Part shown: positions 18,070 to 31,504 of the stretch, in pieces
How positions within the stretch are numbered: position 1 is the stretch's first letter
How the letters are laid out: every line of letters starts with the position of its first letter
Assembly: GCA_027006175.1 (NCBI GenBank)
Contig: JALTKS010000053.1
Coordinates: 1-61,232 of the forward strand
Direction: 5' to 3'
Length of the DNA: 61,232 nucleotides
From: Gammaproteobacteria bacterium
GTDB taxonomy: Bacteria; Pseudomonadota; Gammaproteobacteria; AKS1
Translations under genes and position numbers: made by a program
The notes under the pieces: model-generated
The model's input: only the letters and a program-made list of their open reading frames with translations
What the model was told of the DNA's origin: nothing
Database searches by the model: none

Positions 18070-19752
18070 ATGAAACAACCTGAAGATATTGCTCAACAAG
18101 CAGCGACGTTAGACCAGCATTTGGCGTTAGTCGCTCGTATGACCCAGGAGTTCACTACTTCACTGGATATTGAAGACACATTAAATAATGCCATCACGCA
18201 AATGATGGAATATATGCATGCTGAAGCAGCATCCATCTTTCTATTAGAAAACGATGATACAGAATTAGTCTGCCGTACTTGTGCAGGCCCTATTCAACTG
18301 ACCGGCCTTCGTCTTGCAGCAGATCATGGCATCATCGGCAACACCGTCAAACAAAATGCAGTTCAAATGGTGCTTGATGTCAGTACCGATCCTGATTTCA
18401 CCGCACAAGTTGATGAACAAACCGGATTTACCACTCGCTCAATTCTCTGTGCGCCGTTAACGGTTAAGGACAAAAAACTCGGAGCCATTGAATTAATCAA
18501 TAAAAAATCTGAAGACGGCTTATTTGTTGGAGATGATCAACATATCCTCACCGCCCTGGCTGCTTCTGCTGCCCTGGCTATTCATAATGCAGCAATGGCA
18601 TCAGCACTTATTGAGCAGGAACGCATTCAACATGAGTTAGAACTTGCGCGCGAAATTCAATCCAACCTGCTACCGGTTGCACAGGCAGATGATTATCCTG
18701 TTCATGGATATAACCTGCCCATGCGTGAAGTCTCTGGTGATTTTTATGATTATTTCACCCTGCCTGATGGCAGAATTGTGTTTAATCTTGCCGATGTTTC
18801 CGGTAAAGGCATGAATGCGTCACTGCTTATGGCGAAAACCAGTAGCCTGTTTCACTGCCTTGGTAAAACCCAAACTTCACCAGGGCAGTTAATGAGCATG
18901 ATTAATAATGAAGTGCATGAAAACAGTACTCGCGGCATGTTTGTAACCATGGTTGGCGGTATCTTTGATCCTGCCGATGGCACAATAATTCTGGCCAATG
19001 CCGGCCATCAACCACCGATGCTGCAATATGCAGAGGGGCATTTTGAAGAGATTATTGGTCAATCACCTCCTCTTGGGATTGTGCCTGACGTCGAATTTCC
19101 CGAAACCACGCTCAATTTGAAGGATGGCACACTCTATATATATACAGACGGCGTCACTGAATCACAACAAGATGGCAAAATGCTCGGTGAAGAAGGCTTT
19201 CAGGCCATGATTACAGCTCACCGGGATAAACCCGTAACGGCTCGCATCACTGCCATGTTTGAAAGCCTGCAACGTGAAGGTCGGGAATTGCATGATGATG
19301 TGACTGTTTTAGTCATTGAAAATAAGCCTCAAGCACCTTCTTTATCGCTAAAAGTTCCTGCAAAAGCTAATCATCTCAAGCAGTTACGTGATAAGGCACG
19401 AGAAGTTGTGCTTGCTGCCGGTAGCGGCAAAGAGCAAGCTGACAGTATCATACTTGCCATTAGCGAAGCCGCAAGCAACATCATTCAGCATGCTTACAAA
19501 GACAATGAAGGTGATATTGAACTCAATATTCACATAGACAGCCATATTAGCCCCCATCAACTGGTTATCACCCTACGAGACTACGCTGAAACGATTGATA
19601 TCAATGAAATTCGTTCTCGTGCATTAGATGATGTACGTCCGGGCGGTCTGGGAGTACACTTTATGAAGCAGCTTATGGATAATCTAGTCTATACTGTACC
19701 TGAAGACGGGCGTGGAAACCGTCTCGAAATGAGAATAACAATTAATGAATAA
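18070..19752 (+). CDS. GAF / SpoIIE-type PP2C phosphatase / HATPase (SpoIIAB-like kinase) fusion
   Basis: This 560-residue cytosolic protein carries both enzymatic halves of a partner switch. A GAF sensor domain covers about 25-175 and a helical linker 178-198. The SpoIIE/RsbU phosphatase spans about 200-416 with its metal-binding acidic residues in place: GDFYD (D224), ADVSGKG (D242), YTDGV (D360), DDVTVL. The GHKL ATPase spans about 428-558 with N-box SEAASNIIQHAY (E466, N470) and the lid RPGGLGVHFM. The usual DxG motif reads DYAET (D504), so kinase activity is uncertain. The gene overlaps the STAS gene by 8 bp and heads the Mla-type transporter operon, so the STAS protein is the obvious substrate. 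Confidence 0.93.
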   Translation: MKQPEDIAQQAATLDQHLALVARMTQEFTTSLDIEDTLNNAITQMMEYMHAEAASIFLLENDDTELVCRTCAGPIQLTGLRLAADHGIIGNTVKQNAVQMVLDVSTDPDFTAQVDEQTGFTTRSILCAPLTVKDKKLGAIELINKKSEDGLFVGDDQHILTALAASAALAIHNAAMASALIEQERIQHELELAREIQSNLLPVAQADDYPVHGYNLPMREVSGDFYDYFTLPDGRIVFNLADVSGKGMNASLLMAKTSSLFHCLGKTQTSPGQLMSMINNEVHENSTRGMFVTMVGGIFDPADGTIILANAGHQPPMLQYAEGHFEEIIGQSPPLGIVPDVEFPETTLNLKDGTLYIYTDGVTESQQDGKMLGEEGFQAMITAHRDKPVTARITAMFESLQREGRELHDDVTVLVIENKPQAPSLSLKVPAKANHLKQLRDKAREVVLAAGSGKEQADSIILAISEAASNIIQHAYKDNEGDIELNIHIDSHISPHQLVITLRDYAETIDINEIRSRALDDVRPGGLGVHFMKQLMDNLVYTVPEDGRGNRLEMRITINE

Positions 19753-20098
19753 CAATAGCGACAGTCCGGTGAAATTTGAAATTGATGATGAACAAGGGTA
19801 TCTAGTTGTCCGCTTTGAAGGCGAGATAGATCTCTATGGTACACCGCATGCACGCGAGGTCATCCTCAACTGCATTAAATCAAAACGCAATACCGTGATT
19901 GATCTTTCTGCGGTTAGTTATATTGATAGTTCAGGCGTTGCAAGTTTAGTAGAAGGTTATCAACTTGCCAAGAATGACAAACTGGAATTCGGTCTGGTGA
20001 ATATCAGCGATGCTGTTCTAAGCGTGTTACAACTGGCACACCTTGATAAAGTCTTTACCATTCACGCCTCACTCGATGAACGAATACAGGCCTCTTGA
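19745..20098 (+). CDS. STAS domain protein (anti-sigma-factor-antagonist type; MlaB position)
   Basis: This 117-residue single-domain STAS protein resembles SpoIIAA/RsbV. Its conserved loop SYIDSSGVASLVEG contains S63, aligned with the phosphorylated serine of SpoIIAA (Ser58). In E. coli the equivalent mla gene, mlaB, encodes a STAS subunit that binds the MlaF ATPase; from memory its loop reads DTGG and is not known to be phosphorylated. The gene overlaps the phosphatase/kinase gene by 8 bp and the permease gene by 4 bp (TTGA). This fits a protein that is both a partner-switch substrate and a transporter subunit, which is inference. Confidence 0.92.
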   Translation: MNNNSDSPVKFEIDDEQGYLVVRFEGEIDLYGTPHAREVILNCIKSKRNTVIDLSAVSYIDSSGVASLVEGYQLAKNDKLEFGLVNISDAVLSVLQLAHLDKVFTIHASLDERIQAS

Positions 20099-20901
20099 TT
20101 GATAAAATAGTGTTAAGAACCTTTACAGAAAAGCTCGGCAAAACCACCCTTCGCGGTGTCGAAGAATTAGGTTACTCGATCGCCTTATTAGTTGAATCAT
20201 TTTACTGGCTTTTATTTGGATTCCGCCGCCGACAGGCGGTTAAACTGCCGCCCATCTTTGCACAAATGATGCATATTGGGATACAAGCGCTACCCATCGT
20301 CACCATTCTCGCTTTCGCCATTGGCATGATGCTTGCCATTCAGGGGATCGCAACACTCAAAACATTTGGCGCGGAATCACAAGTTGTACTTGGTATCGCT
20401 TTATCAGTAACCCGGGAATTCTCACCACTCATCATTGGTATTCTTGTCGCGGGTCGCTCAGGTTCCGCATTGGCTGCGCGCATTGGTACCATGCAAATAG
20501 CCCAAGAAATCGATGCGCTACGAGTTATTGGTATTAGCCCCGTTCGGTATTTAGTAACGCCGGCAATGGTTGCTATGTTAATCATGTTACCGTCACTGAC
20601 TTTCTTTGCTGATCTTGTTGCCTTACTCGGTGGTGGTGTTTATAGCTCACTTGAACTTGGTATGAGTTTACAAGCTTATGCTGACAGAACCATTGAAGTG
20701 CTTAAAGTAGAAGACATAACTCAGGGTTTATATAAAAGCCTGGTCTTCGCTGTGATTATTACCCTGGTTAGTTTCGTCAATGGCTTTTCTGTCACCGCAG
20801 GTGCTGAAGGTGTTGGTAAAGCCACTACACGTTCAGTTGTTTTATCCATTACTTACATCATTATCGCTGATATGGTGTTTACTTTCTTCTTAACACACTA
20901 A
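20095..20901 (+). CDS. mlaE: MlaE-family ABC transporter permease
   Basis: This inner-membrane permease of an MCE-type phospholipid transporter has 268 residues. An amphipathic N-terminus precedes several hydrophobic helices. The family core is seen in VAGRSGSALAARIGTMQIAQEIDALRV (read in parts) and in the helix PAMVAMLIMLPSLTFFADL. The start is a TTG at 20095 overlapping the STAS stop codon as TTGA, which implies tight coupling of expression. It is followed 2 bp later by the ATPase gene. The MlaE symbol is by family; the substrate here is not proven. Confidence 0.93.
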   Translation: MIDKIVLRTFTEKLGKTTLRGVEELGYSIALLVESFYWLLFGFRRRQAVKLPPIFAQMMHIGIQALPIVTILAFAIGMMLAIQGIATLKTFGAESQVVLGIALSVTREFSPLIIGILVAGRSGSALAARIGTMQIAQEIDALRVIGISPVRYLVTPAMVAMLIMLPSLTFFADLVALLGGGVYSSLELGMSLQAYADRTIEVLKVEDITQGLYKSLVFAVIITLVSFVNGFSVTAGAEGVGKATTRSVVLSITYIIIADMVFTFFLTH

Positions 20902-20903
20902 CC

Positions 20904-21719
20904 ATGACGAACCAGACTGAAACACAAGCAAGTGCAGCCATCAAGGTAGAAGATCTTGTTACGCACTATGGTAGCACTAGAATACTCGATCATGTAAACA
21001 TGCAGGTTAACACGGGTGAGATCATGGTCATCATGGGAGGCAGTGGTTCAGGTAAAAGTACCCTGCTTCGATATATGCTGGGTTTGCATCAAGCGACTAG
21101 TGGTAGCATTAAGTTACTCGGTCACGATATTACAAAAATCAGTTCACAGGAAATGGATGACCTGCGTAAGAACATGGGCGTTTCTTTTCAAGGTGGTGCT
21201 CTGTTTAACTCCATGACCGTTGGTCAGAATGTTTGCCTGCCCTTGCATGAGCATACCACCCTTGATGAAAACACCATTCAAATTATGGGGCGCATGAAAC
21301 TCTCCGTGGTTAATTTAGGTGGTTTTGATGATCTTATGCCAGCACAACTTTCTGGTGGTATGATCAAACGTGCAGCACTCGCTCGTGCCATTGTAATGGA
21401 TCCTAAATTACTCTTTTTTGATGAACCTTCAGCTGGGCTTGACCCCGTTGCTGCTGCAGAACTGGACGATCTTATTTTACGTATCCGTAAAGCACTTAAC
21501 ACCACGATTGTGGTTGTTACGCATGACCTGGACAGTACCTTTCGTATTGCTGATCGCATTACGGTACTTGATAAAGGTAAAATTTTAATGATCGGCACAG
21601 TAGAAGAAGTTAGAAACTCGGACAACGAACGCATTCAAAGTTTATTAAATCGTGAAGCACGGCATGTTGAAATCAATGCTGATGAATATCTAAAAGAACT
21701 CACCGGACAAAAAGAGTGA
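20904..21719 (+). CDS. mlaF: MlaF-family ABC transporter ATP-binding protein
   Basis: This 271-residue cytoplasmic ATPase powers the MCE transporter. All ABC motifs are intact: Walker A GGSGSGKST, the Q-loop in SFQGGALFNSMT, the signature LSGGMIKRAALARA, Walker B LLFFDEPSAGLDP and the switch His in VVVTHDLDS. The residues after the signature (GGMIKR) are typical of MlaF. In E. coli MlaF binds the STAS protein MlaB, and here a STAS gene lies two genes upstream. It is followed 6 bp later by the MCE gene. Confidence 0.95.
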   Translation: MTNQTETQASAAIKVEDLVTHYGSTRILDHVNMQVNTGEIMVIMGGSGSGKSTLLRYMLGLHQATSGSIKLLGHDITKISSQEMDDLRKNMGVSFQGGALFNSMTVGQNVCLPLHEHTTLDENTIQIMGRMKLSVVNLGGFDDLMPAQLSGGMIKRAALARAIVMDPKLLFFDEPSAGLDPVAAAELDDLILRIRKALNTTIVVVTHDLDSTFRIADRITVLDKGKILMIGTVEEVRNSDNERIQSLLNREARHVEINADEYLKELTGQKE

Positions 21720-21725
21720 ACACTT

Positions 21726-22616
21726 ATGAAACATGAAAATACCAATTATCTTGTTGTTGGCAGTTTTGTACTGGCTGTTATTATTGCCTTGATTATTAGC
21801 CTGACACTCATTACTGGCCGTGGTGGCGAGACAAAAAAATATCATGTTTTTTATGACAGTGTCGCAGGGCTTAAATATGGCACACTTGTTTCCTACGAGG
21901 GCTACCAACTTGGTCAAGTTGAATCTGTTGACCCTGTTCAACATCAAGGCGAAACCATTTACAAAGTCACCTTTGCTATCAGAGAAGACTGGAAAGTACC
22001 AAACGACAGTGTTGCACAAATAATTTCCTCCGGTTTATTGGGTGGTATTTCTATCAACATCAAAGAAGGTGTTAGTAAAACCCCACTAAAAGAAGGCGAG
22101 ACATTACAGGGTCAGGAAGGTGCCGATCTATTTGCTGCCGTAGGCGGTGCTGCGGGTGACATTAAATTATTAATTGGCGATGTACGTAAATTTGTTGGCA
22201 CATTAAACAAAGAAGCCGGTTTAATTGATGATGCCAAACAACTAATGCAACGTCTTGACAACAGTGCAGCCAACCTGGAAAAAATGTTGAGTCCTCAAAA
22301 TGCCGAAAGCATCAATGAAGCAATTGAAAGTTTAAGTGCACTCTCTCAAAAACTGGATAAAACACTCACCGAAGTCGATCAAGTCGTCCACTCATCCAGC
22401 GGTTTAATAGAAGAAAATCGCGCAGACCTGAAACGCTCTATCCGTTTAATGAGTGCCAGCCTTGAAACTGTTTCACAGCATATTGAAACAATTACCTACA
22501 ATCTGGAAGGCACTAGCCGTAACATGAATGAATTTAGTCGGCAGATACGTGAAAATCCTGGATTATTATTGGGTAGCACACCACCGAAAGACAAAGCCGC
22601 GGCAGGAGCAAAATAA
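21726..22616 (+). CDS. MCE/MlaD-family periplasmic lipid-binding protein
   Basis: This 296-residue protein is anchored by one N-terminal helix (NYLVVGSFVLAVIIALIISL). An MCE domain follows at about 38-120 (VFYDSVAGLKYGTLVSYEGY, then SSGLLGGISINI). The rest is a long alpha-helical region of about 150 residues, far beyond that of the 183-residue E. coli MlaD. Long helical tails in MCE proteins can form a tube or needle across the periplasm. It is the substrate-channelling subunit of the transporter encoded just upstream. Confidence 0.92.
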   Translation: MKHENTNYLVVGSFVLAVIIALIISLTLITGRGGETKKYHVFYDSVAGLKYGTLVSYEGYQLGQVESVDPVQHQGETIYKVTFAIREDWKVPNDSVAQIISSGLLGGISINIKEGVSKTPLKEGETLQGQEGADLFAAVGGAAGDIKLLIGDVRKFVGTLNKEAGLIDDAKQLMQRLDNSAANLEKMLSPQNAESINEAIESLSALSQKLDKTLTEVDQVVHSSSGLIEENRADLKRSIRLMSASLETVSQHIETITYNLEGTSRNMNEFSRQIRENPGLLLGSTPPKDKAAAGAK

Positions 22617-22618
22617 CA

Positions 22619-23233
22619 ATGAACAATATCACTTCACGCCTAATTAAAATTTCCATCGCAACATTACTGTTAAGCTTGCTCAGTGCCTGTGCTGCACCAC
22701 CGCCCGTTCCCGAAGACAACTATTACCAATTACCCAACACCACACTCACGCCATTAGCTAATACGTTAACAAGCGATCTTGCGATAAAACGCCTTGCTTC
22801 AGATGGCCTGCATGGTGAACGTGCCCTACTATTCAGTAAAGCAGGACAAGCATTACAATTAAAGCAATATCACTACCACCACTGGAGTGATACACCACCA
22901 CGTATGCTACAAGAATACTTCATCAGTGCACTACGAAAAGCCAATGTTGCTAACACTGTTATCAACTACGATCCGGGGCAGCGCACTGCACTCACCCTCT
23001 CCGGAAAAATACGCCACTTTGAACAAATAGGGCGCGGTAATAAAAATGAAGTCCTGGTTGAACTTGAACTACAACTCCACGACAAACACCATAAGATCGT
23101 TCATCTAAAAGACTATCGCGTTTCACAAATAGCTAAAAGTGGTAAACCACATGACCTTGTCAATGCTTACGGTGAGGCTTTAAACAAAATCGTTACGGAT
23201 TTTATTCACGATTGGTCAAAAATAAATGGCTAA
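22619..23233 (+). CDS. ABC-type transport auxiliary lipoprotein (PqiC-like)
   Basis: This 204-residue lipoprotein has a clear lipobox (LLSLLSACAAPP). The mature part resembles the ABC_trans_aux/PqiC family, with an early YYQL motif, LAIKRLASDGLHGERALLF and a central YHHWSDTPPRMLQEYF. Such lipoproteins probably receive the lipid channel at the outer membrane. The start codon lies 2 bp after the MCE stop, so it completes the operon of six genes. A receptor lipoprotein of this type is more typical of Pqi-like or Mce-like systems than of E. coli Mla. Confidence 0.88.
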   Translation: MNNITSRLIKISIATLLLSLLSACAAPPPVPEDNYYQLPNTTLTPLANTLTSDLAIKRLASDGLHGERALLFSKAGQALQLKQYHYHHWSDTPPRMLQEYFISALRKANVANTVINYDPGQRTALTLSGKIRHFEQIGRGNKNEVLVELELQLHDKHHKIVHLKDYRVSQIAKSGKPHDLVNAYGEALNKIVTDFIHDWSKING

Positions 23234-23284: not shown

Positions 23285-23863
23285 ATGAATTCAGTTATTA
23301 ATGGTGTTGACTACGGCCCCTTAGCACTACTGCTGGGTCGGTGGGTAGGTAATAAAGGCCTGGATACAGCACCCGATTCGGATGCCAATCCTGATAAAAC
23401 AGGCTTTACAGACGAAATAAATTTCACCGTATCCGGTCCTGCAGAAAATGCCGAAGAACAACAACTGGTCACAATAAGGTACCATCATGTTGTTAGAAAA
23501 CTGGAAAACGGACTGATATTTCATGACCAAATAGGTCATTGGATCTATGAACATGATAGCAACATCATCATGCATTCATTAAGTATTCCAAGAGCAGTTT
23601 GTTTACTTGCTGGTGGAAAATATCAAGAAAAAGAAGGAGAAAGTCTTTTTAATGTTGAAGCCAAACAGGGAAGTGATACTTTTGGCATTATACAATCACC
23701 CTTCATGCTTGAAAAAGCAAAGACCACCGCATTCCGTATGGCGCTATCCGTTAAAGATGACACCCTTTCATACAATGAAATAACATCATTAGAAATATAT
23801 GGAAAAACATTCGAACATTCTGACAGTAGCGTGTTGCATCGAGTGACATACGATCAAGATTAA
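23285..23863 (+). CDS. Nitrobindin-like heme-binding beta-barrel protein
   Basis: This 192-residue soluble protein has no signal peptide. The opening LALLLGRWVGNKGLD matches the G-x-W-x-G start of the nitrobindin/THAP4 ten-stranded barrel. Later strands include GLIFHDQIGHWIYE and SLSIPRAVCLLAGG. Members bind heme and may sense or isomerise nitrogen-oxide species. An AGGAG lies seven bases before the ATG. It follows the lipoprotein gene by 51 bp and may or may not be part of that operon. Family assignment rests on pattern only. Confidence 0.65.
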   Translation: MNSVINGVDYGPLALLLGRWVGNKGLDTAPDSDANPDKTGFTDEINFTVSGPAENAEEQQLVTIRYHHVVRKLENGLIFHDQIGHWIYEHDSNIIMHSLSIPRAVCLLAGGKYQEKEGESLFNVEAKQGSDTFGIIQSPFMLEKAKTTAFRMALSVKDDTLSYNEITSLEIYGKTFEHSDSSVLHRVTYDQD

Positions 23864-28487: not shown

Positions 28488-29240
28488 CTAACTGATTCTT
28501 TTAATCAATACGACTGAAATATTATCCTGACCGCCCGCATCATTAGCCGCACCGACTAATTGTTTTACTGCTTTTGAAAGCTCTATGGTGTTATTTAGTA
28601 TGTCTGCGATAACATCATCGTCAATATAACTACTGAGTCCATCTGAGCATAATAAATAAATATCCTCTGCCTGTGTTGCTTGCATTGTTACTTCTGGTTC
28701 GACACATCGTTCGACACCGAGCGTTCTGGTTAATACATTACGGTATGCCATATTTTTACCAACGATACCCGTTGCACATAACTCCTGCGCCATGGAATGA
28801 TCCAGGGTAAGTTGATGTAACGCCCCCTGCCGAAGACGATAGCAACGTGAATCACCAACATGAGCAATACAAAGGTTCTCATCATGAGCCAATGCCATCA
28901 CCAATGTTGTTCCCATGCGACCGATTTCAGCATTCTTGCTACGAACACTAAAAATGGCATTGTTTGCATCTGCCACGGCGTCCATTACTCGCCAGACCAT
29001 TCGTGCACTTTCTGCGCCCCACGATTCACTGTCTTTATTGATCTTACGACAGACTGTTTCACGTGTATGCTCAACCGCTAAGCGACTCGCAATTTCACCA
29101 CCCGCAAAACCACCTACACCATCTGCAACAATGGCGAGAGCAGAATTTTCATCCTCACTTAAATACCAATCGATACTATCCTCATTGTTCTCACGCACGA
29201 GTCCAATATCGGTTTCTCCATGTATTTTAAATTGGCTCAT
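28488..29240 (-). CDS. PP2C-family Ser/Thr protein phosphatase
   Basis: This 250-residue cytosolic phosphatase opens with TDIGLVRENNEDS. The metal-binding aspartates are present in IVADGVGGFAGGE, in LLCSDGLSSYIDD and in the last DNISVVLI; GDSRCYRLR is also conserved. PP2C enzymes of this type reverse the action of the adjacent Hanks-type kinase. The gene lies 11 bp downstream of the kinase gene and 12 bp upstream of the FHA gene, so all three are probably co-transcribed. No regulatory domain is attached. Confidence 0.95.
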   Translation of the reverse strand: MSQFKIHGETDIGLVRENNEDSIDWYLSEDENSALAIVADGVGGFAGGEIASRLAVEHTRETVCRKINKDSESWGAESARMVWRVMDAVADANNAIFSVRSKNAEIGRMGTTLVMALAHDENLCIAHVGDSRCYRLRQGALHQLTLDHSMAQELCATGIVGKNMAYRNVLTRTLGVERCVEPEVTMQATQAEDIYLLCSDGLSSYIDDDVIADILNNTIELSKAVKQLVGAANDAGGQDNISVVLIKRIS

Positions 29241-29251
29241 CTTTAATATCC

Positions 29252-31504
29252 TTAGGCCTTTGCCAGGGCATCAGCCATCTCTTGTGCCGAGGCATAACGT
29301 TTTTCCGGTTTTTTCTGTAATGCCTTATTAATAATTCTAACTATTCTGGCAGGTAATTCCGGACGTAGTTCACGGATACTGCGATGCTTTTTATTGGTAA
29401 TTTGATAAGCAAGACTCGGTAAACTGTCACCTTTGAATGGCAACTCACTCGTGAGTAATTGATATAAGCTAACACCCAAACTAAAAATATCCGCTCTGCC
29501 ATCAACCTTGCCATCCGTCAGTTGCTCGGGTGCCATGTAACTTGGGCTACCTAGAACCGTTCCCGTACGTGTCGTGGTTGTGTCGGTAACACGAGCAATC
29601 CCAAAGTCACTGACTTTGATACGCGCTTCATCCTCGTTATAAAGTAAATTGCCGGGCTTAATGTCCCGGTGCACAATACCTTGCCTATGTGCATAATCAA
29701 TTGCTTGTGCGGCTTGTCCAACAAGCCGATAAACCGTATCGCAATCTAACCTTTCAGCTTCGCTTGTGTATTCACTTAGTGGTTTACCGGGGACGTAATC
29801 CATTGCGATAAAAGCGAGATCCTGCTCGTCACCAATATCAAAAACGGTAACTATATTCGGATGGTTCAATCTACCGGCAGCTTCAGCCTCACGGAAAAAT
29901 CGTGTTTTGATTGCATCTGCTTCTCGACCACTAAACTGTTTAAGGTTAATCGTTTTTACGGCCACATCACGCACAATTTTTGGATCATGTCCTAAATAAA
30001 CAATACCCATTGCGCCTCGCCCCAGTTCGCGGCGTAATTCATAGCGACCTAAAACAGGATGCTCCAGACCCATTTCTGGCATCACCAAGGTACTTGCACC
30101 ATTAAATGTACTTTTTACGGGAGAAGTCTTGCTCTGTACATCTGCCAGAGTTTTTAAACGTTTGCCAATATCACGATAGCCTTTCTTCATTCGAGATAAG
30201 CGGCTAAATAACCTGAATGCTTTGTCGTAACGGCGTTGTCGTTCATATTCAATGCCGATGGTGTACAACAATTCATAAACATCATCTTGTGGTTGACAGC
30301 GTAATAATACATCTGCAGCTTCATCATACTCCGCTGTTTCAACTTGTTTTTTACCTAGCAGCAATAAAGCACCGTCTTTTTCTTCAACAAGTTTATTGAG
30401 TTTTTGCTCGTAACACAGCGCTAAAGACATCAAGCTATGTCCAAGAATAATAAATGCCATTAGGATTGTGAGTGGCAACCATAATTGAGCAATCAACATT
30501 AATCCTATTTGCCCTGCCATAATGGTTGCGATAAACATACCGCTCACTAATATTCCCGTCGTAAAACGAATCGTGGGCAGAATAATAAATAAGTAAAAAA
30601 CAATGATAAAAACTGTGCTTGCAAACACAAGGTAGGCCCATGCTGGCACATGAACGCTTTGCCCATTCAACATCGCTGACATAACACGTGCCAGTGATTC
30701 CATTTGTGCCAAACTACTTTGACCTATTACAACAACCTTGTTATGAAACTGGCGTAATGATTCACCTCGACCAAATTCAGTACTATTAAAATACGGAATA
30801 TCTGTTTTTACCGACGAGGGAATATAAATTCTGCCATCCGGTCCGGTAAGCAAATATTCTCTGTTGACACTTAGTCCGACTCCTTCTTTCCAATATATTC
30901 GCTGATTCTTGTTCGCCTCGCTATACACTCGTAGCATTAAATCCGCGATAGGTAATCGCCCTTGCAACCACACTAAATTATGTTGTTGATCTGATAATTT
31001 ACCCAGAGGCACATACAAGGTGTTTTTACGTAACTTACTGTCTGAACCGATTTGTGGAGGGTGTCTTAAAAGTGACGTGAATAATGAGGGTTCATAAGAG
31101 GGATCAACCGGCGCAATCCGTTTTGCTGTACTGAATACAATCGCATCACTATCAAATGAGCCTGGCACAATACCCGCTGGAATCGATAGTTGACGCAGGC
31201 CTTTACGTAGTTTGCTATCAAGTGGCAGGCCAATAAAAGCAACACCTTTGGGGCTTTCAGCCACAACCCGCTCAAGGAACCGTTTAGATTGGCTGCCACT
31301 GATGTCATACGGTAACTCAATCATCACCACATTAGCGGTATCATCTGATGCTTTTTGAAGATACGAAGCCCACGTAAACCAGTGGTTATCAAGCCACTCG
31401 GAAAATGGCTGCGCCAGGGGTGTTAGTAAAACAATCGCCAGCAATAACACCATGCCTCGCGCATTGCTAAGAAAGCGACAAATGCTTGACCAAATCATCC
31501 TCAT
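29252..31504 (-). CDS. CHASE2-domain Ser/Thr protein kinase
   Basis: This 750-residue membrane kinase has an N-terminal helix and a periplasmic CHASE2 sensor (about 40-285). Three membrane helices follow (about 290-375), then a short TPR-like region (about 385-450) and a C-terminal Hanks kinase domain (about 490-748). The kinase motifs are complete: glycine loop LGRGAMGIVYLG, VAVKTI, catalytic loop HRDIKPGNLL, DFGIARV and APEQ. Placing the kinase at the C-terminus, with CHASE2 outside, suits sensing of a periplasmic signal. It starts the kinase-PP2C-FHA operon. A second in-frame ATG lies two codons downstream. Confidence 0.94.
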   Translation of the reverse strand: MRMIWSSICRFLSNARGMVLLLAIVLLTPLAQPFSEWLDNHWFTWASYLQKASDDTANVVMIELPYDISGSQSKRFLERVVAESPKGVAFIGLPLDSKLRKGLRQLSIPAGIVPGSFDSDAIVFSTAKRIAPVDPSYEPSLFTSLLRHPPQIGSDSKLRKNTLYVPLGKLSDQQHNLVWLQGRLPIADLMLRVYSEANKNQRIYWKEGVGLSVNREYLLTGPDGRIYIPSSVKTDIPYFNSTEFGRGESLRQFHNKVVVIGQSSLAQMESLARVMSAMLNGQSVHVPAWAYLVFASTVFIIVFYLFIILPTIRFTTGILVSGMFIATIMAGQIGLMLIAQLWLPLTILMAFIILGHSLMSLALCYEQKLNKLVEEKDGALLLLGKKQVETAEYDEAADVLLRCQPQDDVYELLYTIGIEYERQRRYDKAFRLFSRLSRMKKGYRDIGKRLKTLADVQSKTSPVKSTFNGASTLVMPEMGLEHPVLGRYELRRELGRGAMGIVYLGHDPKIVRDVAVKTINLKQFSGREADAIKTRFFREAEAAGRLNHPNIVTVFDIGDEQDLAFIAMDYVPGKPLSEYTSEAERLDCDTVYRLVGQAAQAIDYAHRQGIVHRDIKPGNLLYNEDEARIKVSDFGIARVTDTTTTRTGTVLGSPSYMAPEQLTDGKVDGRADIFSLGVSLYQLLTSELPFKGDSLPSLAYQITNKKHRSIRELRPELPARIVRIINKALQKKPEKRYASAQEMADALAKA

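Follow-up and report, generated by a model that had tools for sequence, protein, structure and literature searches.

The 61,232-nucleotide stretch of DNA analyzed here (the window; contig JALTKS010000053.1 of assembly GCA_027006175.1, from a gammaproteobacterium of the GTDB lineage AKS1) contains six plus-strand open reading frames (ORFs), called on the window, that form a single operon at positions 18070 to 23233. The first (18070 to 19752) encodes a 560-amino-acid fusion of a GAF domain (Pfam score of 47.5 bits), a SpoIIE phosphatase of the PPM type (151.6 bits) and a HATPase_c_2 kinase (75.9 bits), with conserved catalytic residues. The second (19745 to 20098) encodes a 117-amino-acid STAS protein (72.3 bits) with a DSSG loop, whose assignment draws on Pfam, NCBIfam and alignments with SpoIIAA and TM1442. 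The remaining four specify a lipid ATP-binding cassette (ABC) transporter: a MlaE permease (20110 to 20901; 235.4 bits), a MlaF ATPase with a C-terminal extension (20904 to 21719; ABC_tran, 113.7 bits) whose best PDB matches are MlaF structures, a 296-amino-acid MCE protein with a long tail (21726 to 22616; MlaD/MCE, 49.3 bits) and a 204-amino-acid PqiC-like lipoprotein (22619 to 23233; ABC_trans_aux, 42.3 bits). All of these domain calls exceed the curated Pfam cut-offs, bearing out the six-gene operon and the domains described in an initial annotation of this DNA.

The phosphatase-kinase and STAS genes overlap by 8 nucleotides (19745 to 19752), as first reported. A second overlap, between the STAS and permease genes, had also been claimed, but it exists only if MlaE starts at the TTG at position 20095 that opens its longest ORF. 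This TTG is absent from a relative in the same genus (locus L053), and the GTG at position 20110 is common to both, making the GTG the likely start and leaving an 11-nucleotide gap after the STAS gene.

Signature residues of the switch proteins are highly conserved. The DSSG loop (D61-S62-S63-G64 in the window) occurs in 112 of 112 non-redundant operons, as do the N-box Glu/Asn, the G1 Asp and the central G2 Gly of the HATPase domain, and in a set of 142 phosphatase sequences the metal-binding residues (D224, D242, D360, D409 and D410) never vary where aligned. The RsbW model scores 57 bits on the HATPase domain, under its equivalog cut-off. For the STAS protein, anti-sigma factor antagonists are the top-scoring family (77 bits against the NCBIfam model ant_ant_sig), and its score of 28 bits against mlaB_1, which has a cut-off of 90, places it outside the NCBIfam MlaB family; no match to mlaB_1 above that cut-off occurred among 369 genomes sampled from the class.

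The initial annotation correctly recognized the DSSG loop but pointed to Ser63, which by homology is not the acceptor. In PDB alignments, wild-type SpoIIAA reads DSSG and its variant 1tid reads DASG, and since the Ala that replaces the SpoIIAA acceptor in 1tid aligns with Ser62, this first Ser of the loop is the predicted phospho-acceptor and, as judged by alignment, the homologue of SpoIIAA Ser58 and E. coli MlaB Thr52. Canonical MlaBs have Ser at the equivalent place in 32 of 32 cases, followed by Ala in 29 of the 32, so the DSSG loop marks the switch-type STAS.

The transporter genes resemble a known chimeric system. A single operon that specifies MlaE and MlaF together with a long MCE protein and a PqiC-like lipoprotein, but neither MlaA nor MlaC, has the content of the Mla-Pqi chimeric (Mpc) type, represented by MpcEFDA of Brucella abortus, in which the same genes occur in the same order and STAS is part of the transporter (PMC12436622). 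There, STAS is fused to the N terminus of MpcE, the MlaE counterpart, and the sections consulted describe no dedicated kinase or phosphatase (PMC12436622). In contrast, the operon in the window encodes a free, SpoIIAA-like STAS protein separate from MlaE and preceded by a phosphatase-kinase.

The gene order singled out by the initial annotation recurs in many genomes. Within the sample of 369 genomes, the phosphatase-kinase query found relatives in 78, and about 30 of 40 inspected loci contain a sensor-bearing SpoIIE, HATPase, STAS and MlaE in that order; in most of them, MlaF, a long MCE protein and a lipoprotein come next. A profile of the operon-type MlaE delimits a distinct subfamily in this sample, with 46 matches at about 1e-98 or better and all others at 4e-69 or worse; MlaEs outside the subfamily are mostly 370 to 440 amino acids in length, and the two that were scanned both carry a fused STAS domain. 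After the removal of duplicate fetches by hand, 44 of the 46 loci were testable, and HATPase and STAS genes lie immediately upstream of MlaE in 41 of these, which span approximately 26 families. Among 80 loci from named organisms, the same arrangement was present in 75 of the 76 that were testable. Named carriers include Gammaproteobacteria, Rhodospirillales, Rhodocyclaceae/Azonexus, Dokdonella and Tahibacter, along with a few metagenome-assembled genomes (MAGs) labeled Myxococcota, Nitrospirota and Marinimicrobia, which could be mis-binned. Azonexus hydrophilus (L183), Insolitispirillum peregrinum (L144) and Terasakiella pusilla (L169) are among the carriers named to species.

Based on the eight STAS matches in the 2.47-Mb genome that contains the window, we estimate the chance that a given gene adjoins a STAS gene to be on the order of 1% or less, and the linkage of switch and transporter is far beyond chance. 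Within every complete operon, the STAS gene is directly beside the kinase gene. The linkage is strong but not obligate, because there are exceptions (L108, L110, L214, L069, L225 and others). At two loci (L216 and L217), the HATPase and STAS genes lack an adjacent SpoIIE gene, another (L207) has a divergent SpoIIE gene, and L225, from a phylum-level draw, has no STAS gene within 1.5 kb. Two genomes (G302 and G066) encode the transporter without adjacent HATPase or STAS genes and have a canonical MlaB elsewhere. The distribution is also patchy, since searches at the order and phylum levels added little (the phylum draw gave 6 from 398 genomes); G132, which is complete and belongs to the same genus, does not have the operon.

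The switch module is not confined to one kind of transporter. In four loci (L063, L065, L074 and L076), the genes for GAF-SpoIIE, HATPase and STAS lead into those for another kind of MlaE (approximately 33% identical) and a short MlaD, with a convergent MlaF gene and, where read, MlaA and MlaC after MlaD. At a fifth locus (L080), HDOD-SpoIIE, HATPase and STAS are followed by MlaF, MlaE, MlaD, MlaA and MlaC; MlaA and MlaC were confirmed with Pfam in L076 and L080. The same module is therefore attached to both the canonical Mla pathway and the Mpc-like transporter. Its composition varies while the gene order is kept: the phosphatase sensor is either GAF or HDOD, and the phosphatase and kinase are either fused or split. 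In an alphaproteobacterial MAG (L132:5249-5977), HATPase and STAS share one open frame, which may reflect a sequencing error or a true fusion of the kinase with its substrate. Five loci (L068, L070, L071, L073 and L079, of which L071 is a short contig) encode GAF-SpoIIE without a neighboring kinase or STAS, and most of their genomes have an HDOD-SpoIIE version at another site; L128 encodes a receiver-SpoIIE in tandem. Such extra phosphatases may supply additional inputs to the switch.

Each part of this arrangement has counterparts in characterized systems. The SpoIIE-SpoIIAB-SpoIIAA and RsbU-RsbW-RsbV switches likewise combine a PPM phosphatase, a HATPase serine kinase and a STAS substrate with its acceptor in a DSSG or DSTG loop, but their output is a sigma factor, whereas the genes linked to the switch here encode a lipid ABC transporter. 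In SiaABCD of P. aeruginosa, a phosphatase and a kinase also set the phosphorylation state of a small protein that activates an enzyme directly, and phosphorylation blocks binding, although the effector is a diguanylate cyclase and the acceptor is Thr68 of SiaC (PMC8457831). The E. coli MlaFEDB complex shares homologous MlaE and MlaF proteins, the Tyr and Leu of the MlaF tail, and a phosphorylatable residue after the Asp of the STAS loop (PMC5016091, PMC7367683), and in both systems the STAS partner would be expected on the helical domain of MlaF. E. coli MlaB differs in being a minimal STAS protein with a D[S/T]AG loop and no known kinase or phosphatase (PMC5016091, PMC7367683), while the STAS protein in the window has the DSSG loop, a longer C terminus and both enzymes encoded in its operon. 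The MlaF tail retains Tyr262 and Leu266, which are invariant where present in the 112 non-redundant operons and lie within a conserved YLxRLT motif. These residues are the counterparts of Tyr261 and Leu265 of E. coli MlaF, which belong to its C-terminal extension and, with Leu266, are inserted where MlaF meets MlaB (PMC7367683).

Taken together, the operon probably encodes an Mpc-like lipid ABC transporter along with a partner switch dedicated to it, and the target that this switch phosphorylates would be the STAS subunit, which would correspond functionally to MlaB. STAS would be phosphorylated on Ser62 by the HATPase domain, and the SpoIIE domain, gated by the GAF sensor (elsewhere HDOD), would remove the phosphate. 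Unphosphorylated STAS would dock on the MlaF helical domain and support its assembly or ATPase activity; STAS that is phosphorylated or held by the kinase would not dock, leaving transport off. This sign is suggested by the behavior of E. coli MlaB, in which the T52E substitution reduces binding to MlaF and T52A, though still MlaF bound, eliminates ATPase activity (PMC5016091, PMC7367683), and by the SiaC/SiaD pair, in which phosphorylation blocks effector binding.

The initial annotation proposed that phosphorylation of STAS switches MlaF activity in response to the GAF ligand, and what stands of that proposal is the functional link between switch and transporter. This link is strongly supported by the gene order kept across families, the presence of the module on a second type of Mla operon, the sensor swaps, and the STAS-MlaE fusions of sister transporters; the latter, of the Mpc type, also argue that STAS belongs to the transporter. 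We infer that STAS is phosphorylated, that it binds and gates MlaF here as MlaB does in E. coli, that phosphorylation means off, and that the GAF ligand is the signal. More generally, we favor the view that these operons constitute a partner-switch class, widespread in Proteobacteria and present in some MAGs of other phyla, with an intermembrane lipid ABC transporter as its direct output, interchangeable GAF and HDOD sensors, and the phosphorylation state of STAS serving as a post-translational on/off control over the passage of lipids across the envelope.

Structure prediction favored one of the two proposed interfaces. An AlphaFold2 model of an in-frame HATPase-STAS read-through (L066, 24-row paired alignment) had a predicted template modeling score (pTM) of 0.80 and a mean predicted local distance difference test (pLDDT) of 86, with the linker alone disordered. 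By our own estimate, two similar-sized domains of unknown mutual position would give a pTM of about 0.5, so docking of STAS on the kinase is predicted. The STAS-MlaF interface would be expected by homology with the E. coli complex.

Several observations limit the case for a STAS-gated MlaF or run counter to it. A STAS-MlaE-MlaF read-through (L081, 12-row alignment) was uninformative, with a pTM of 0.48 and MlaF badly folded. In mean-field direct coupling analysis of the 112 non-redundant operons (effective number, 82 to 101), the top STAS-MlaF and STAS-HATPase couplings (z of approximately 5 to 7) could not be told apart from STAS-MlaE pairs or from what is likely to be phylogenetic noise, and we draw no contacts from them. 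Three loci of the class sample (L108, L110 and L214) have the transporter without HATPase and STAS, and L069 has the switch without the transporter. The MlaF tail motif is kept in L214 and changed in L110, both without an adjacent STAS, and Veillonella, which is MlaB-less, has a shorter MlaF tail, as modeled. Persistence of the tail in some loci without an adjacent STAS, and in Veillonella, weakens its use as proof of STAS binding. We also rejected conservation of the acceptor Ser as proof of phosphorylation, because that Ser is equally invariant in the canonical MlaBs (32 of 32).

If the switch had another output (a sigma factor, an anti-sigma factor or some other regulator), the transporter would be a passenger or co-regulated only transcriptionally, which resembles the alternative of a separate sigma-factor switch entertained in the initial annotation. 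Such a scheme fits the fact that anti-sigma factor antagonists give the STAS protein its highest scores, and it fits the unpaired loci as well, both the switch without a neighboring transporter (L069) and the transporters without a switch (L108, L110 and L214). However, neither the operon nor the loci whose genes were read contain a sigma or anti-sigma gene, the MlaE linkage holds in 41 of 44 loci and involves two transporter types, and sister transporters fuse STAS to MlaE. Given this conserved linkage, a passenger sigma-factor switch becomes unlikely, and we regard other outputs in general as unlikely too.

A switch that does act on the transporter might have the opposite sign, with phosphorylated STAS activating MlaF, the kinase turning transport on and the phosphatase turning it off. 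Phospho-BtrV of Bordetella is the binding form (PMC8256260), and both the invariance of the acceptor Ser and the inactivity of MlaF-bound T52A point the same way; the weakened MlaF binding of T52E and the block that phosphorylation imposes on SiaC oppose it, making this version rather improbable. It is also conceivable that STAS is a constitutive, structural MlaB-like subunit, and that the kinase and phosphatase act on another protein or merely set how stable or abundant STAS is, in which case the ATPase would not be acutely gated. In E. coli, MlaF needs MlaB to assemble and to remain stable (PMC5016091, PMC7367683), and MlaBs lacking a linked kinase keep the Ser without exception, both as a constitutive subunit would predict. 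Yet the STAS gene adjoins the kinase gene in every complete operon, DSSG is absent from canonical MlaBs, and STAS is predicted to dock on the kinase in the AlphaFold2 model; we consider a constitutive role very improbable and prefer STAS as the phosphorylated, gating subunit.

Profile searches of the genome from which the window derives recovered only two MlaE genes, that of the operon described here and one in a canonical mlaF-mlaE-mlaD-mlaB operon on contig C56. The initial annotation had raised the possibility of a separate MlaB serving the transporter in the window; a canonical MlaB with a DSAG loop does exist, but it lies inside the C56 mlaFEDB operon and does not refute the assignment. 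Because the C56 operon has its own MlaB, the transporter in the window has its own STAS gene and the canonical transporter has another. A second partner-switch pair, separate from that of the operon, occurs on contig C8 (L020:943-2937), where a 562-amino-acid receiver-SpoIIE-HATPase protein is encoded next to a STAS protein and beside a chemoreceptor-like gene. As in the operon, a phosphatase-kinase fusion adjoins a STAS gene, but this pair differs in its receiver input, DSSA loop, chemoreceptor-like neighbor and lack of a transporter. Three MlaC homologues occur on contigs C51, C112 and C96 (L229 to L231), with no MlaE gene in the fetched flanks.

Phosphorylation of the conserved Thr of MlaB was proposed by Thong (2016) and Kolich (2020) without naming the enzymes (PMC5016091, PMC7367683), and Kolich et al. 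stated that experimental evidence for it was absent (PMC7367683). A full-text literature search, with most subscription papers outside its scope, returned no description of MlaE with SpoIIE or of MlaB with partner switching. The parts are all known, and their coupling as a transporter-gating partner switch appears to be new. These operons supply candidates for the kinase, the phosphatase and the signal domains, all in genetic linkage with a transporter, making the proposed MlaB-type phosphorylation directly testable. If the mechanism is correct, the reach of partner switching would go beyond transcription and cyclic di-GMP synthesis and include an ABC transporter as a direct target, and bacteria would be able to tune the flow of lipids through the envelope with no need for fresh transcription. 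In a published census that covered the components of Mla, MlaB was represented by the NF033618 family; since the STAS protein described here scores far under the cut-off of that model, DSSG-type STAS proteins may be under-counted in such a census.

The closest named relative of the MlaE protein, at 93% identity, is from a Sulfuriflexus MAG, and the host most likely belongs to that genus. Upstream of the operon, a gene for a type IV pilus ATPase (TfpB) runs divergently, and the downstream neighbor, at position 23285, is a THAP4-like heme-binding gene that was seen in none of the fetched relative loci, some of which end too early. A scan for promoters and terminators returned matches no more numerous than in shuffled sequence. 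Among loci with atypical arrangements, a gene for a 370-amino-acid HD-domain protein abuts the mlaE start in L214 (5018-6127), in place of the switch, and the genome of L214 carries the switch module on its canonical Mla operon instead (L076). A DUF1841 gene, confirmed with Pfam in L216 and recognized by eye in L108, L110, L125 and L069, is situated directly upstream of the transporter, HATPase or GAF-SpoIIE gene in these five loci. Elsewhere in the window (28491 to 31504, minus strand), a PP2C phosphatase gene adjoins the gene for a 750-amino-acid protein with a Ser/Thr kinase domain. A similar PP2C/kinase pair with an FHA-like gene is convergent to the Mla operon in L053, and FHA-like genes also occur near the switch in L069, together with PP2C, and in L216.

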